A stretch of DNA of 35,980 bases from a virus: positions 1-35,980 of IMG/VR virus record IMGVR_UViG_3300037247_002101; one strand, 5' to 3'. The translations under genes and the position numbers were made by a program. Under the pieces are notes generated by a model, which made no database searches, had not been told where the DNA came from, and was given only the letters and a program-made list of their open reading frames with translations. Of this stretch, positions 27,554 through 34,320 are shown piece by piece. Each line of letters begins with the position of its first letter. The first letter of the stretch is position 1.

Positions 27554-27699
27554 TAGTTGAACTTAGGAATTTTCATGTTATAATAATGGATCTTGAACTT
27601 TTTGATAAATATGTTTTCAACCTTCATACAATCTTTTTCGAGGAGAAGAGAACTAAACAGTGGGAAGTACTTTTAGCGGAGGTGAAAGGTGACAGTTAA
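27550..27699 (+). CDS. FHxIIxY-family microprotein 1
   Basis: 49 aa, beginning MIVELRNFHVIIMD. First of seven consecutive coupled paralogues. It is most like the next copy: both share LRNFHVII, F..HTIFF and W(E)...LAE. Starts ATGA on the previous stop codon. Confidence 0.7.
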   Translation: MIVELRNFHVIIMDLELFDKYVFNLHTIFFEEKRTKQWEVLLAEVKGDS

Positions 27700-27847
27700 A
27701 GTTGAACTTAGGAATTTTCATGTTATAATAAAGGATCATGATCTTTTCGAAGAGAATCTCTTCAATTTTCATACAATCTTTTTCGATGTCAGGAATAAAA
27801 AGCGATGGGAAATATTTTTAGCAGAGTGGAGAAGCAATGACGATTAA
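27689..27847 (+). CDS. FHxIIxY-family microprotein 2
   Basis: 52 aa from GTG at 27689 (VTVKVELRNFHVIIKD), chosen for GGAGG 6 nt upstream. At both DNA and protein level it is close to copy 1 (a shared run of CTTAGGAATTTTCATG), so this pair is the most recent duplication in the array. Confidence 0.7.
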   Translation: MTVKVELRNFHVIIKDHDLFEENLFNFHTIFFDVRNKKRWEIFLAEWRSNDD

Positions 27848-30267: not shown

Positions 30268-30519
30268 ATGAATCCCACACTAAAATCCTTTTTGGGTATT
30301 TTTATGATTGCTTTGGTTTTCGGGTTTGGCTACATTTCTTATAATCACATTGACAATTCGTACATGATGAATGAGCCGGATCATGTTGTTGAACTGGAAG
30401 CGGCAAATGACAGTTTGGAAAATGTTATATCGGACCTGGAAGAGCAGAATGCCGAATTAACGGAAGAACTGGACGAACTCACATCCGAATCAGAGGAGGA
30501 AACCACTGATGAAAAATAG
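30268..30519 (+). CDS. Membrane-anchored coiled-coil protein
   Basis: 83 aa, beginning MNPTLKSFLGIFMIALVF. An N-terminal transmembrane helix (about 7-25), then an acidic coiled coil (ELEAANDSLENVISDLEEQ onward) to the end. The plan is like an inner-membrane spanin subunit or a membrane assembly factor; there is no partner lipoprotein nearby, so spanin is not proposed. It overlaps the large membrane-protein gene by 11 nt. Confidence 0.7.
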   Translation: MNPTLKSFLGIFMIALVFGFGYISYNHIDNSYMMNEPDHVVELEAANDSLENVISDLEEQNAELTEELDELTSESEEETTDEK

Positions 30520-31882
30520 ACCCTCACAAATCGGCGCTGGATTTGCCGATGAATATTTGGGCCATGAAAAAAATATTGTGATAAATGTGGAAGATCCCCG
30601 CTATCGATATTATCAGTGGTTAAGAGGATGGTATGGTATGGGAACCAAGGAGGTTACTAACAAATGCCCCTTTTACCAATTCATGGTTTTTGGAAGTATA
30701 TTGATGCTAGCATCTATCATTGGTATCATACTAATGAAAATCATCGATATTTTTATTCTGTGGCCATTGTCATGGGTTGCTCCCAAATTTGTTGACGACT
30801 TTAATGCTACCGCATCAAAAAGCAAAATGATATTTTCCTGGATCATTACTGGGATAGTGATGATATTTGCCATACTTATAGGTGGACTTTTGTCCACAAA
30901 TATCTTAGCCTGGTTCGGCCTGGTAGTACACTGGATATTTGCAGTTCCGTGGATAATTGTTGTGTGCATATGGTTGCTAATTGTATTTCTCGTTACAACC
31001 GGGATTCCCTGGCTTTTCTTCGGTATTGGTTTTGTTCTTGAATGGCTTCTTGCCGTAATAATTGCTTTCATAAATATCCCATGGTTAAGTGTTATTATGT
31101 GGATTATGGTTGCCTTGGGCGCGATTGTTGGAACCACTATAACAATGGTATTACTTTATAAGATTGGTGTCTGGTTCTTCAAAAGTTCCTTTGTAGCATG
31201 GATAATTAAAAAATCTTGTGATGTACGAGAATTCAGAATCAGGAGACGTAGAGATCATAAGGTTAAAGTCCATAAACTGAAAAAAGAGAAAATACGGATG
31301 CGAGAACTTAAAGAGGAGGAAACCTGGGGAGGAGGATGGAGAGAGCCGAACGAAAGATGGGATAAAATTCTTGTGGCTGGATTTTCTATTGTATGGGCAG
31401 GATTAATGATTTTCCCGGGATATCCATTCAAATTGATTGGCTATGGTTTCAAATGGATTTGGGCAGGAATTGGTTTAGTAGAATCAGGCCTTGAATGGAT
31501 TGCTAAGAAAATCTGGGATGTTATTGTGGTCGTCTGGTCACTTATTACCGAAACTATTTCTAATCATTGCCCACCAATTGATTTTGTTGTCGAAATCAGT
31601 GAAAAAGGTAAATTGGTTCCACGACATAATGGAAATTTTCGATTTACGAGTATGGATCTGGATAATGATATTATGATTAATGCGACGGATCTGCCTGATG
31701 GTTTCAAACCTTTTAAAGCAAAAGATGGGCGCCAGGCAACAATTCGCTGTACGATAAAAACTTCTGAACTTGAACAAGCCAAAAGGCTTTATAATAAATT
31801 TGGGACCCGTTCGGATCTGGATGTTTTTAAAATCCAGGATTTAACGTATGTTCCTACCCGCGTGGTCAGGAAGAAGAAATAG
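30509..31882 (+). CDS. Large multi-pass membrane protein
   Basis: 457 aa, beginning MKNRPSQIGAGFADEYLG. About six transmembrane helices lie in residues 58-230, many Trp/Ile-rich with short loops. A very basic cytoplasmic segment follows (REFRIRRRRDHKVKVHKLKK, about 243-262), then one or two further hydrophobic stretches (about 292-350) and a soluble C-terminal domain (FVVEISEKGKLVPRHNG to the end). No family is recognised. It is unusually long for this region and co-translated with the coiled-coil anchor, so the two may form one membrane complex. Confidence 0.75.
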   Translation: MKNRPSQIGAGFADEYLGHEKNIVINVEDPRYRYYQWLRGWYGMGTKEVTNKCPFYQFMVFGSILMLASIIGIILMKIIDIFILWPLSWVAPKFVDDFNATASKSKMIFSWIITGIVMIFAILIGGLLSTNILAWFGLVVHWIFAVPWIIVVCIWLLIVFLVTTGIPWLFFGIGFVLEWLLAVIIAFINIPWLSVIMWIMVALGAIVGTTITMVLLYKIGVWFFKSSFVAWIIKKSCDVREFRIRRRRDHKVKVHKLKKEKIRMRELKEEETWGGGWREPNERWDKILVAGFSIVWAGLMIFPGYPFKLIGYGFKWIWAGIGLVESGLEWIAKKIWDVIVVVWSLITETISNHCPPIDFVVEISEKGKLVPRHNGNFRFTSMDLDNDIMINATDLPDGFKPFKAKDGRQATIRCTIKTSELEQAKRLYNKFGTRSDLDVFKIQDLTYVPTRVVRKKK

Positions 31883-31916: not shown

Positions 31917-31968
31917 AGCTATAGATTATGAAGGTATTTTTCCATATCTTTATATGAAGGAGAATGCT

Positions 31969-32688
31969 ATGCTAAAAAAATTTCTTTTCTTGTTTTTTGT
32001 TTTATTACCCATGTTGATATTTGGGCAATATGACTCTGAAGTTTCATATTACCAAATGAACATTTTCAAAATTGAAGGGAACTATGAAGTTCCTATAGAA
32101 GTCACCAAAAATGAGGGTGATTCTTTAGACTTCATAGTTGTTTACGACACTATCAACCCACCTTATATCTCACCTTATGGTAGTTTTCTATACGACACTA
32201 AACAAATAGACAACGACCAGTCGTCATGGAATGGGAACGAAATGACTATCACAAGCGTGATAGACTATCCGGAAGGTATATACGAAATTACTTTGGATGC
32301 TGTAAAGCACTGGCTGGAAGAAGATTCTTTGCTCTATGGATACTGTACCAATGCTTTGTACCTGGAAGTGGATTCCAGCAATGCTACCGCACTAATTGAA
32401 GATCCCAGGATATACGGAATTAATTTGAAACAGAATTATCCTAACCCGTTTAACCCTACCACCACTATACAATATTCTATAAAAAACCAATCAATAGTAT
32501 CTCTGCATATAGTAGATATTACCGGAAGAGTCGAAGAGATATTTTCCGAAAGATTTCGGAGTCCCGGGACATATTATGTATCGATCGACGCAAGTAATCT
32601 GGCAAGTGGCAACTATATCTATTTCCTACGTGTTCAAGCAAATGGTAAAATACACATCTTAAAGAAAGTTTTTACAGTCTTAAAATAA
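31969..32688 (+). CDS. Secreted protein with type IX secretion C-terminal sorting domain
   Basis: 239 aa from ATG at 31969 (MLKKFLFLFFVLLPMLIFG), with GAAGGAG 6 nt upstream. The upstream in-frame ATG has no RBS. Residues 1-19 are a Sec signal peptide with likely cleavage before QYDS. The middle is beta-rich (about 20-145). The last 85 residues are a T9SS type A sorting domain: QNYPNPFNPTTTIQYSI, then VSLHIVDITGRVEEI, GTYYVSIDASNLASGNYIYFLRV and a basic Lys-rich end. Such cargo crosses the outer membrane by the host Por/T9SS system and is attached to or released from the surface. A surface role such as blocking rival phages is inference. Confidence 0.88.
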   Translation: MLKKFLFLFFVLLPMLIFGQYDSEVSYYQMNIFKIEGNYEVPIEVTKNEGDSLDFIVVYDTINPPYISPYGSFLYDTKQIDNDQSSWNGNEMTITSVIDYPEGIYEITLDAVKHWLEEDSLLYGYCTNALYLEVDSSNATALIEDPRIYGINLKQNYPNPFNPTTTIQYSIKNQSIVSLHIVDITGRVEEIFSERFRSPGTYYVSIDASNLASGNYIYFLRVQANGKIHILKKVFTVLK

Positions 32689-32746: not shown

Positions 32747-32833
32747 ATGGATAAGCTTATGTCAAGAGCAATGATAGCATCTGGAATCATTTCTATCGTT
32801 CTCGGTTACATCTTGTTTAACATGTTGTTCTAA
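32747..32833 (+). CDS. Single-helix membrane microprotein
   Basis: 28 aa, MDKLMSRAMIASGI then IISIVLGYILFNMLF. The only gene in its promoter-terminator cassette, with AAGGAG 7 nt upstream. A tiny membrane peptide; function unknown. Confidence 0.6.
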   Translation: MDKLMSRAMIASGIISIVLGYILFNMLF

Positions 32834-32918: not shown

Positions 32919-32938
32919 GGCATAAGAATAGTGATAAC
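32919..32938 (+). promoter_or_regulatory. GGCATAAGA promoter-like element
   Basis: ACGGCATAAGA, 5 nt, GATAAC, CATTTAAGTTAGGAG. Upstream is a very AT-rich stretch that may ease melting. Confidence 0.6.
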
Positions 32939-32959: not shown

Positions 32960-33391
32960 ATGCGTAAAAGTTATGATTTATCAATTGAAAATTTCCATAA
33001 AGCCAACAACTCTATCCATTCCAAGTTAATTTATGGTGGTACTCCTCAAGTGCGTTTACATGTTGCTAAAGAAATGCGCCAGCTAAATATTGATTGCAGT
33101 ACTATGCAAGAATTGTATTTTGACTGTGCAGGTGGCGGTGAGGTCCCATTATTTGCTGGATGGTTAATAATTGATAACGTTGAATTAGCAACTAAACGCT
33201 GTCAGTTCTATCTAAAAGATTATATGGATGCCAAATCAAAGGAAGAAACCTGTGTAAGATTGACATTTTTAAGTCAGAGCAGTCTGAAAAAGGAACTGGA
33301 AAACGATATTATGGTTCCAGGTTTTTATTACAATATCGTTTATTTTATAAACGCCTATGATCTATATGATGCGGGATTAATTAAAATATAG
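32960..33391 (+). CDS. Degenerate NtrC-like AAA+ protein A
   Basis: 143 aa, beginning MRKSYDLSIENFHKANN. It is a paralogue of the 33841 gene. The order YGGTPQVRLHVAKEM, YFDCAGGGEVPLFAGWLIIDNVELATKRCQ, RLTFLSQSSLKKELE, MVPGFYYNIVYFINAYDL follows the central AAA+ domain of sigma54 activators (GETGTGKE, GGTLFLDE, Q..LL, IAAT...L, F..DLYYRLNV). The Walker A lysine is missing and the Walker B DE is DN, so it should not hydrolyse ATP. The GAFTGA loop and C-terminal DNA-binding domain are absent. Confidence 0.68.
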   Translation: MRKSYDLSIENFHKANNSIHSKLIYGGTPQVRLHVAKEMRQLNIDCSTMQELYFDCAGGGEVPLFAGWLIIDNVELATKRCQFYLKDYMDAKSKEETCVRLTFLSQSSLKKELENDIMVPGFYYNIVYFINAYDLYDAGLIKI

Positions 33392-33398
33392 GAATCTC

Positions 33399-33557
33399 AT
33401 GCAGTTGTGTAAAGAATGCAAAGAATGGAATATTGACGGCACTAATGACTTGTGCCCCAAATGTCAATTTCTAGCTGATGCTATCAAAAATAACACTGAG
33501 CAAGTTATATCAGCATTGGAAATTTTGGGCTACAAGGTCACAAGAGAGGCAAAATAA
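33399..33557 (+). CDS. Small zinc-ribbon protein
   Basis: 52 aa, MQLCKECKEWNIDG onward. Two cysteine pairs, CKEC (4-7) and CPKC (19-22), form a rubredoxin-like knuckle, followed by an amphipathic helix (AIKNNTEQVISALEILGY). It lies 7 nt after the AAA+-like gene with a poor RBS (GGAATC), so it is probably coupled. The stop codon is in a terminator loop. Confidence 0.68.
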   Translation: MQLCKECKEWNIDGTNDLCPKCQFLADAIKNNTEQVISALEILGYKVTREAK

Positions 33558-33572
33558 TTTGCCTCTTTTTTA
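33545..33572 (+). terminator. Intrinsic terminator
   Basis: Perfect stem AGAGGCAAA / TTTGCCTCT with loop ATAA, then TTTTT. Confidence 0.85.
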
Positions 33573-33582
33573 GTTATAAAGT

Positions 33583-33603
33583 GGCATAAGAGTCATGAAG
33601 GCT
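33583..33603 (+). promoter_or_regulatory. GGCATAAGA promoter-like element of ncRNA
   Basis: GTGGCATAAGAGTCATG follows a terminator, as elsewhere, but no protein gene follows. The TATAAT-like box is not at the usual place. Confidence 0.5.
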
Positions 33604-33788
33604 GACTTATAACTTAGACACCGAAAATGCAGTTTCAAGGACTAATAGGTACGCGGGTGCCGTTCGTTGGCTAGAACCTAATGAAGCCGTCCGCTAGCAC
33701 TTTGACTTGGCGGTTCCGAGTCATTGACGCGAAAAATAGGACCAACATTGTAAGAAAAAGAGGAGCTGCATCTTACCCTCTTTTTTTA
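33604..33788 (+). ncRNA. Structured noncoding RNA cassette
   Basis: About 185 nt between a GGCATAAGA element and a terminator, with no open frame longer than 15 codons in the forward direction. Stems include GACTTGG / CCGAGTC with loop CGGTT (near 33703-33721) and GCTAG / CTAGC (about 33670-33697). It has the same promoter and terminator context as the neighbouring small genes, so the product is most simply an RNA. GCTAGCACTT is complementary to AAGTGCTAGC in the tRNA-like RNA at 26418. The function is unknown. Confidence 0.55.
33757..33788 (+). terminator. Terminator with competing hairpin
   Basis: Stem AAAGAGG / CCTCTTT followed by T-tract (TTTTTTT). An alternative stem GTAAGA / TCTTAC (33750-33755 with 33771-33776) would exclude it, so a switch is possible. 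Confidence 0.7.
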
Positions 33789-33797
33789 CCTTTAAGT

Positions 33798-33817
33798 GGC
33801 ATAAGAACGATGATAAT
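33798..33817 (+). promoter_or_regulatory. GGCATAAGA promoter-like element
   Basis: GTGGCATAAGA, 5 nt, GATAAT, CATTTAA, then TTTAGGAGG before the 33841 gene. Confidence 0.65.
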
Positions 33818-33840
33818 CATTTAAACTTTAGGAGGCAATT

Positions 33841-34287
33841 ATGATACAATTTGATTCTAACATACTCCCAGATAATCTTACTCCAGACCAAATAAAGACC
33901 ATGTTAATAATATGCAATGTAGTTAAAACATCTGATCCGATATTGATTTTTGGTCGTACTGGTGATATTAGAACAAATATTGCGCGCCAAATTGCTAATC
34001 GTAGCCTGTACAAAAAGTTCGGAAAAACTTATTTCGATTGTGGAGTAGAATATGGTTCAGTTCCATTAACGGCTGGAACTATAATAATCGACAATGTTGA
34101 TTATGCTTCTAAATCCGTTCAAACCAGATTAAAGGATTGTATGGACGCAAAAGTGAATAATGAGTATATGAGATTCATATTCTGTAGTGAAACTAACTTG
34201 GTAGAAAAAGTTGAAACCGGTAATCTTTTGCCTGGCGTATTCCATAATATGGTTATGAGTATTAACGCCGAGCATGTAATGTTGTGA
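33841..34287 (+). CDS. Degenerate NtrC-like AAA+ protein B
   Basis: 148 aa, beginning MIQFDSNILPDNLTPDQ. FGRTGDIRTNIARQIANRS (about 38-56) takes the place of the GETGTGKE Walker A of sigma54 activators. AGTIIIDNVDYASKSVQTRL is the Walker B/helix segment with DN instead of DE. MRFIFCSETNLVEKVETGNL matches sensor-I, and PGVFHNMVMSINAEHV matches the conserved FR.DLYYRLNV end. It lacks the ATP-binding Lys, the GAFTGA loop, receiver and HTH domains. It is a paralogue of 32960-33391 with a different N-terminus. It might act as a decoy or inhibitor of a host AAA+ activator (inference). Confidence 0.7.
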   Translation: MIQFDSNILPDNLTPDQIKTMLIICNVVKTSDPILIFGRTGDIRTNIARQIANRSLYKKFGKTYFDCGVEYGSVPLTAGTIIIDNVDYASKSVQTRLKDCMDAKVNNEYMRFIFCSETNLVEKVETGNLLPGVFHNMVMSINAEHVML

Positions 34288-34291
34288 TACC

Positions 34292-34309
34292 AGGGAGACT
34301 TGTCTTCCT
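34292..34309 (+). terminator. Weak terminator hairpin
   Basis: AGGGAGA / TCTTCCT with loop CTTG and one G-T pair, without a U-run. It sits at the place where the other cassettes have strong terminators. Confidence 0.35.
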
Positions 34310-34320
34310 AGCTATAAATT

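Follow-up and report, generated by a model that had tools for sequence, protein, structure and literature searches.

Paired phage proteins related to the AAA+ core of sigma54 activators and predicted to be catalytically inactive

A virus record of 35,980 nucleotides (IMG/VR IMGVR_UViG_3300037247_002101), referred to below in its entirety as the window, contains two short genes, P_a and P_b, whose predicted products resemble the AAA+ motor domain of sigma54 activators (bEBPs) in outline and appear to have lost the residues on which such a motor depends. The locus raises the question of where these proteins come from and what a phage may do with a motor domain that is not expected to turn over ATP. 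A preliminary description of the sequence had presented them as paralogues, and both are indeed present in the list of open reading frames (Table 1) and share 49 of 127 aligned residues (39%, E 1e-23 in a single pairwise comparison); a search of the 35,980-base record with P_b returned P_a and P_b as the sole matches. The term minimal, also used for them, is apt, as both ORFs stop right past the fifth strand and Pfam gives no other domain matches.

Table 1. Positions in the window of the pair, of its sequence remnants and of the surrounding elements.
Feature	Position	Strand	Basis or remark
28-aa peptide unit	32747-32833		
Promoter-like motif GGCATAAGANNNRTG before P_a	32919-32933	+	one of 12 matches
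P_a, 143 aa, putative dead EBP-type AAA+ core	32960-33391	+	paralogue of P_b; NCBIfam PgtA below cut-off
Walker A remnant of P_a, GGTPQVRL, Lys to Arg32	33035-33058	+	alignments
Walker B remnant of P_a, GWLIIDN	33158-33178	+	alignments
52-aa ORF with two CxxC pairs, zinc-ribbon-like	33399-33557	+	7 nt after P_a
Intrinsic-terminator-like hairpin closing the P_a unit	33542-33569	+	fold z -5.33
Promoter-like motif of the RNA unit	33583-33597	+	motif scan
Unassigned unit with hairpin and T-run at its end	33598-33790	+	3' hairpin z -2.17
Promoter-like motif before P_b	33798-33812	+	motif scan
P_b, 148 aa, putative dead EBP-type AAA+ core	33841-34287	+	PF14532 and PF00158 below cut-off; hhalign; model
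Walker A remnant of P_b, GRTGDIRT, Lys to Arg44	33952-33975	+	alignments
Walker B remnant of P_b, GTIIIDN, Glu to Asn85	34075-34095	+	alignments
Weak hairpin after P_b, possible terminator, not convincing	34288-34314	+	fold z -0.99, no T-run

Kinship with sigma54-activator AAA+ domains had been proposed from the order of motifs, and it is upheld by profile comparisons in which P_b carries the signal. Against Pfam, P_b gave two collinear matches, both below the gathering score, to PF00158 (residues 23-68, E 0.0054, 16.9 bits, cut-off 20.2) and PF14532 (residues 76-131, E 0.0012, 19.6 bits, cut-off 25), and P_a gave no match to either family. The sole NCBIfam match for each protein was the NtrC-type regulator PgtA, far below its cut-off (P_a E 0.0068, P_b E 0.013). 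When a joint P_a/P_b profile was compared with six E. coli bEBPs, hhalign returned a score of 42.9 over 113 columns (P 2.1e-6), to be set against a mean of 12.5 (sd 2.3, maximum 22.6) for 200 column shuffles compared with the same six proteins and 14.0 for the reversed profile; in the comparison with 80 bEBPs spread over many phyla, 40.8 was reached against a shuffle maximum of 21.1. P_b alone reached 38.6 in the latter comparison and P_a alone 13.8, inside the shuffle range, so that the membership of P_a in this group rests on its relationship to P_b. The best single-protein comparisons, each covering 101-129 columns, were with TyrR (36.1), NorR (35.2) and ZraR (30.4), and weaker scores among the ten E. 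coli bEBPs compared were those of PspF (21.8), RtcR (20.0), GlrR (19.0) and AtoC (18.8). As controls, 15 other E. coli proteins, mostly P-loop NTPases, yielded at best 25.1 over 17 columns (McrB), and 131 other ORFs at best 23.8. Searches of whole genomes with the pair profile gave one weak match among 82 genomes of one phylum (E 0.049) and one among 395 genomes of another (E 0.009), each in an EBP-type protein, and zero matches in the six genomes searched earliest. The core collinear with bEBPs comprises P_b residues 14-135, and P_b is 16-26% identical to the aligned bEBPs. These sequence comparisons place P_a and P_b, beyond chance, among the homologues of the alpha/beta core found in the AAA+ domain of sigma54 activators; they belong to the bEBP clade by descent and, by its defining features, do not qualify as functional bEBPs.

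The fold is compatible with this assignment and also brings in other small AAA+ or P-loop lineages, such as clamp loaders, MuB-like proteins, Mg chelatase or RuvB, as conceivable sources of the pair. Structure prediction from the two phage sequences alone had a pLDDT of 36.5, and with 40 bEBP rows added the values rose to pLDDT 84.5 and pTM 0.78; since the latter model was conditioned on a bEBP alignment, it may reflect threading onto the fold and does not amount to independent proof of it. With that reservation, the agreement with PspF that was to be expected from the proposed kinship was obtained, the bEBP-conditioned model of P_b aligning by VIA with PspF at Z 17.3 (rmsd 2.2, 135 residues). 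MuB scored Z 16.8 with the same conditioned model, tied with bEBPs, and RuvB at most 13.8; the best 50 VIA matches listed comprise only bEBP-type regulators, MuB and RuvB, which does not in itself exclude other families. In a Foldseek search of the PDB, MuB, which is not a bEBP, ranked first, and ranks 2-50 of the best 50 matches listed were all sigma54 activators or relatives of the kind of FleQ, VpsR, NtrX and LuxO. The top matches in a viral structure library were clamp loaders, which have the AAA+ fold in common with bEBPs, and no protein named EBP-like occurred among the 50 matches listed. Apart from these ranks of MuB and the clamp loaders, origin from another lineage is favoured by a match to a clamp loader family (phrog_168, E 0.063 over 36 residues). 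The sequence profiles point the other way, as the 36.1 of TyrR compares with 20.0 for YifB, 19.2 for DnaX, 18.0 for ClpX, 17.7 for RuvB and 12.4 for RavA. The fold searches themselves were made with a bEBP-conditioned model. An origin outside the bEBPs is disfavoured and considered very unlikely.

The extent of the catalytic loss was assessed in an alignment (A4) of P_a, P_b and 40 bEBPs drawn from 80 that were fetched. The absence of the Walker A lysine, reported in the preliminary description, was confirmed: this residue is present in 40/40 aligned bEBPs and is Arg in both phage proteins (P_b R44, P_a R32). All 80 fetched bEBPs have a GxxGxGK Walker A to which neither P_a nor P_b conforms, and the two agree with each other at 3 of 9 P-loop positions, where active proteins average 94% pairwise identity. 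The Walker B Asp and Glu occur in every one of the 40 aligned bEBPs, and both phage proteins have DN for DE (Glu replaced by Asn in each). GAFTGA, receiver and HTH domains are likewise missing, as previously noted; the L1/GAFTGA segment is deleted in both proteins (strict GAFTGA is present in 62/80 bEBPs) and the ORFs hold no further domains. For the Arg fingers, PspF R162 was taken to be one of the two positions compared, the other being PspF R168 as assigned in PMC7175178. Arg occupies each position in 40/40 bEBPs, and P_b and P_a have Leu and Val at one and Asn and Asn at the other. Also missing from both are 8-9 residues of the pre-sensor-I (L2) insertion and the helical lid. The L1 and L2 loops are described as acting on sigma54 (PMC7175178) and the pre-sensor-I insertion as a mark of the clade (PMC2745333). 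Both Arg fingers, the L2 insertion and the lid come in addition to the losses already on record, and the catalytic loss read from the alignment is therefore more thorough than was previously stated. The designation ATPase-dead is consistent with the loss of the P-loop Lys and Walker B Glu; from established AAA+ biochemistry, a protein in which the P-loop Lys, the catalytic Glu, the Arg fingers and the lid are gone is not expected to turn over ATP, and we infer that P_a and P_b are inactive as ATPases. Taken alone, descent from a bEBP core followed by catalytic loss is considered highly probable.

Proteins so reduced might be left over from a host gene that was captured and is now decaying without a function, as could be supposed from the loss of every catalytic part and from the failure to find relatives in the collections searched. 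The coding sequences, however, do not behave like relics. Both ORFs are intact, each with a promoter-like motif and a ribosome-binding site. Over 131 aligned codons the identity between P_a and P_b is 0.557, 0.664 and 0.450 at codon positions 1, 2 and 3, the second position being the most conserved, and the Nei-Gojobori method (NG86) gives dN 0.55 and dS 1.51, the latter near saturation, with dN/dS ~0.37. This ratio indicates that the two genes are not decaying relics, the pseudogene reading was rejected on the codon pattern, and functionless decay is regarded as extremely improbable; by the same codon comparison, P_a and P_b are kept by purifying selection. The presence of the same derived residues in both proteins (Arg, DN and the Asn at the second finger) would place the catalytic loss before the duplication, which suggests that one dead ancestor was duplicated and that both copies held their reading frame through 61% divergence. 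Residues 60-104, which take in Walker B together with the strand preceding L1 and the helix that leads to L2, form the best-kept block between the two (25/44 identical versus 26/87 elsewhere, Fisher p 0.004). The block is also the best kept in active bEBPs (0.68 versus 0.505 and 0.561), and for this reason it marks no new binding face.

Loss of parts of the EBP domain has precedents among bacterial proteins. The pair is alike to the AAA+ domains of bEBPs such as PspF, NtrC1, FleQ and FlrC in the collinear core and differs from them in lacking the Walker A Lys, DE, Arg fingers, L1, L2, lid and regulatory and DNA-binding domains. TyrR, DhaR, HupR and VpsR are GAFTGA-less bacterial EBPs which no longer use sigma54 and which, according to PMC3162934 and PMC10274813, have lost the L1 sigma54-contact motif as the pair has, but are full-length transcription regulators, unlike the pair. 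E. coli TyrR keeps GDTGTGKD and LDE, and the pair does not. A protein from a bacterial genome (L119) is also without GAFTGA and Arg fingers, has QN for DE and shares NLDYLDKRAQTRL with the NVDYASKSVQTRL of P_b; in contrast to the pair, it has a lid, a Fis-type HTH and a Lys in its Walker A stretch (GEPGTEK). The protein encoded by MT836006 lacks GAFTGA, has a Walker B without DE and carries Arg where the Lys of Walker A would stand (GESGTQRR), yet differs from the pair in having a lid, one finger Arg and PAS-like matches. The entry itself (MT836006.1, L034 400-2370, 'Bacteriophage sp.'), in which this degenerate EBP is 656 aa long, resembles bacterial sequence that was entered as a phage. Compared with such pseudo-EBPs, what appears to be new in the pair is that its members are stand-alone, lid-less, phage-borne and without DNA binding. 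No natural EBP derivatives smaller than such AAA+ cores without lid, pore loop and DNA-binding part are known to us. The earlier statement that no phage system of this kind has been described agrees with the open-access literature in the passages available, where none was found, and NtrC and sigma54 are absent from the passages searched of a survey of jumbo phages (PMC7824862).

The pair appears to be a local accessory of this phage, as no homologue turned up in the related contigs searched. Queries of viral contigs (P_b, P_a, the alignment of the two, a core of 38 residues) yielded no relative that passed, and neither did searches of genome contigs or, with P_b as the query, of plasmids; PADLOC gave no match at E up to 1. 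Among phage records, the one weak match of P_b was MT836006 (E 0.6), and that of P_a, Escherichia phage CBA6 (E 10), was taken as chance. The nearest related phage contig (G001), with a terminase 84% identical, is syntenic with the window from the structural genes to a 457-aa membrane protein at 30509-31882; its ORFs between 20 and 60 kb include no homologue of the pair (best profile E 0.56). The pair profile matched nothing in 10 related phage contigs, most of which may be fragments. Some further features of this group of phages were recorded. A 127-nt direct repeat of the window (27555-27681 and 27700-27826, 80% identical, spacing 145) is overlain in both copies by short ORFs matching a stretch of G001. 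The fetched stretches of two related phages, L037 and L038, contain 18 and 34 tRNA genes, including in each a tRNA with a CUA anticodon (L037 12574-12649, L038 12384-12455; tRNA-Pyl according to ARAGORN), which may read TAG as sense. On the minus strand of L011, at ~1-143, a promoter-like motif is followed at the stretch edge by the apparent start of a tmRNA gene; we presume this identity from its motif, the gene would extend past the fetched stretch, and ARAGORN reports no tmRNA within it.

The surroundings of P_a and P_b suggest how they may be expressed. On its minus strand the record carries a terminase (PHROG 675, E 3.9e-67) together with matches to a major head protein and a head maturation protease, and from ~22 kb onward there is an arm of small genes mostly on the plus strand. 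Within this arm, a short protein at 23295-23540 matches Lar, which alleviates restriction (PF14354, E 1.2e-9), and is possibly an anti-restriction gene product, and a secreted-type protein at 31954-32688 has a C-terminal sorting domain of type IX secretion (PF18962, E 1.7e-9), which points to a host of the Bacteroidota/FCB kind. The layout repeated around the pair consists of a promoter-like motif, a short 5' leader, a ribosome-binding site and a short gene, mostly followed by a hairpin with a T-run. The motif, GGCATAAGANNNNTG, has 12 matches with at most one mismatch where 0.62 are expected, all of them on the plus strand between 19223 and 34593. A form of it, GGYATAAGA (GGTATAAGA), recurs before small genes in the three related phage contigs examined, and a pattern search of eight related contigs found matches in five. 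Strings of small genes with strong promoters of their own resemble the host-takeover regions of phages such as SPO1. The likeness of the repeated TGGCATAAGA motif to a sigma54 -24 box was considered and set aside as superficial: related phages use GGTATAAGA, and a scan of the window for sigma54-type promoter consensus sequences gave no excess (16 found, 13.9 expected). Relative to what we take to be the sigma54 consensus, the second element of the TGGCATAAGA motif is 2 bp off and without GC. The T4-type TATAAATA was uninformative (8 found, 5.7 expected).

The unit following P_b is a 48-aa ORF. P_a presumably shares its transcript with the 52-aa zinc-ribbon-like ORF, which has weak matches to PF13248 (Zn_ribbon_3, E 0.084) and phrog_26165 (E 0.0037). 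The two genes had been said to flank a noncoding RNA cassette. This is correct insofar as a promoter-like motif, about 190 nt free of any assigned gene and a terminator-like hairpin lie between P_a and P_b, but the 52-aa ORF is situated there as well and the RNA itself has little to distinguish it: no Rfam family matched at the gathering score and none convincingly at E up to 10, the whole unit folds no better than shuffles (z 0.02), no similar DNA occurs in the fetched phage loci, and a comparison with the phage collection gave nothing beyond 22-nt matches at E 10. The unit is probably non-coding.

As the compact core is all that remains of the domain, action by binding is the economical reading, and it is judged likely from the residues lost that P_a and P_b act in this way and not by burning ATP. 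The explanation preferred as a whole, with a probability of roughly 45%, starts from an ancestor that would have been the alpha/beta core of a bacterial bEBP AAA+ domain, that lost the parts contacting ATP and sigma54 and was then duplicated; the two products, made from separate short phage units, would bind stoichiometrically and would compete in the host by fold mimicry, occupying through the retained surface either a partner or an edge of the host's bEBPs or of AAA+ proteins related to them. Among the mechanisms considered, host-directed fold mimicry is tentatively ranked first. A host bEBP as the target, with the pair as decoy or poison subunit, is plausible but doubtful, and it is rather unlikely that the pair represents pseudo-EBPs in the strict sense, stand-alone dead copies of the activator motor domain of the host itself that would act during infection as paired decoys and shut down the sigma54-dependent regulators of the host.

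A narrower case of the preferred explanation would have P_a and P_b insert into or cap the hexamers of host sigma54 activators and so stop sigma54-dependent transcription. Its appeal lies in bEBPs being the closest relatives by sequence and fold, and in the number of targets that some bacteria offer, PF14532 having 7-43 matches in each of 82 genomes of one phylum, which may not be that of the host. According to PMC3711915, AAA hexamers can be less active when they contain inactive subunits. The strongest point against ring poisoning is that the parts lost are the ring-forming ones (lid, both Arg fingers, P-loop); with the lid and both fingers gone and an identity of P_b to bEBPs as low as that given above, ring compatibility is in doubt, and the window lacks an excess of sigma54 promoters. 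This narrower case accordingly stays questionable. If the pair does act on the host, the idea would be that of P4 Psu, a phage inhibitor of the host hexameric ATPase Rho (PMC11718236), namely a phage protein disabling a host ring; Psu, however, is a capsid building block, whereas the inhibitor formed by the pair would be a relative of its own target.

The loss of ring elements speaks for exaptation within the phage, where the dead core would serve some phage partner as a structural or adaptor module and have no relation to host bEBPs. Candidate partners are the zinc-ribbon protein, whose gene begins 7 nt after P_a, an RNA, or P_a and P_b in a complex with each other, and the existence of two diverged copies suggests different partners or a heteromer. 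No conserved neighbour of the pair emerges, however, its profile finding nothing in the ten related contigs searched, possibly fragments for the most part. Exaptation is a possibility to be taken seriously, held as short of likely.

The significance of the preferred explanation depends on the partner. If the pair binds host bEBPs, it would show that copying the motor domain of a class of host regulators is a way for a virus to disable them, and the two proteins would provide a small genetic tool directed at sigma54 activators. If it binds something else, P_a and P_b would illustrate how far reuse of the AAA+ core can reach once catalysis is gone.
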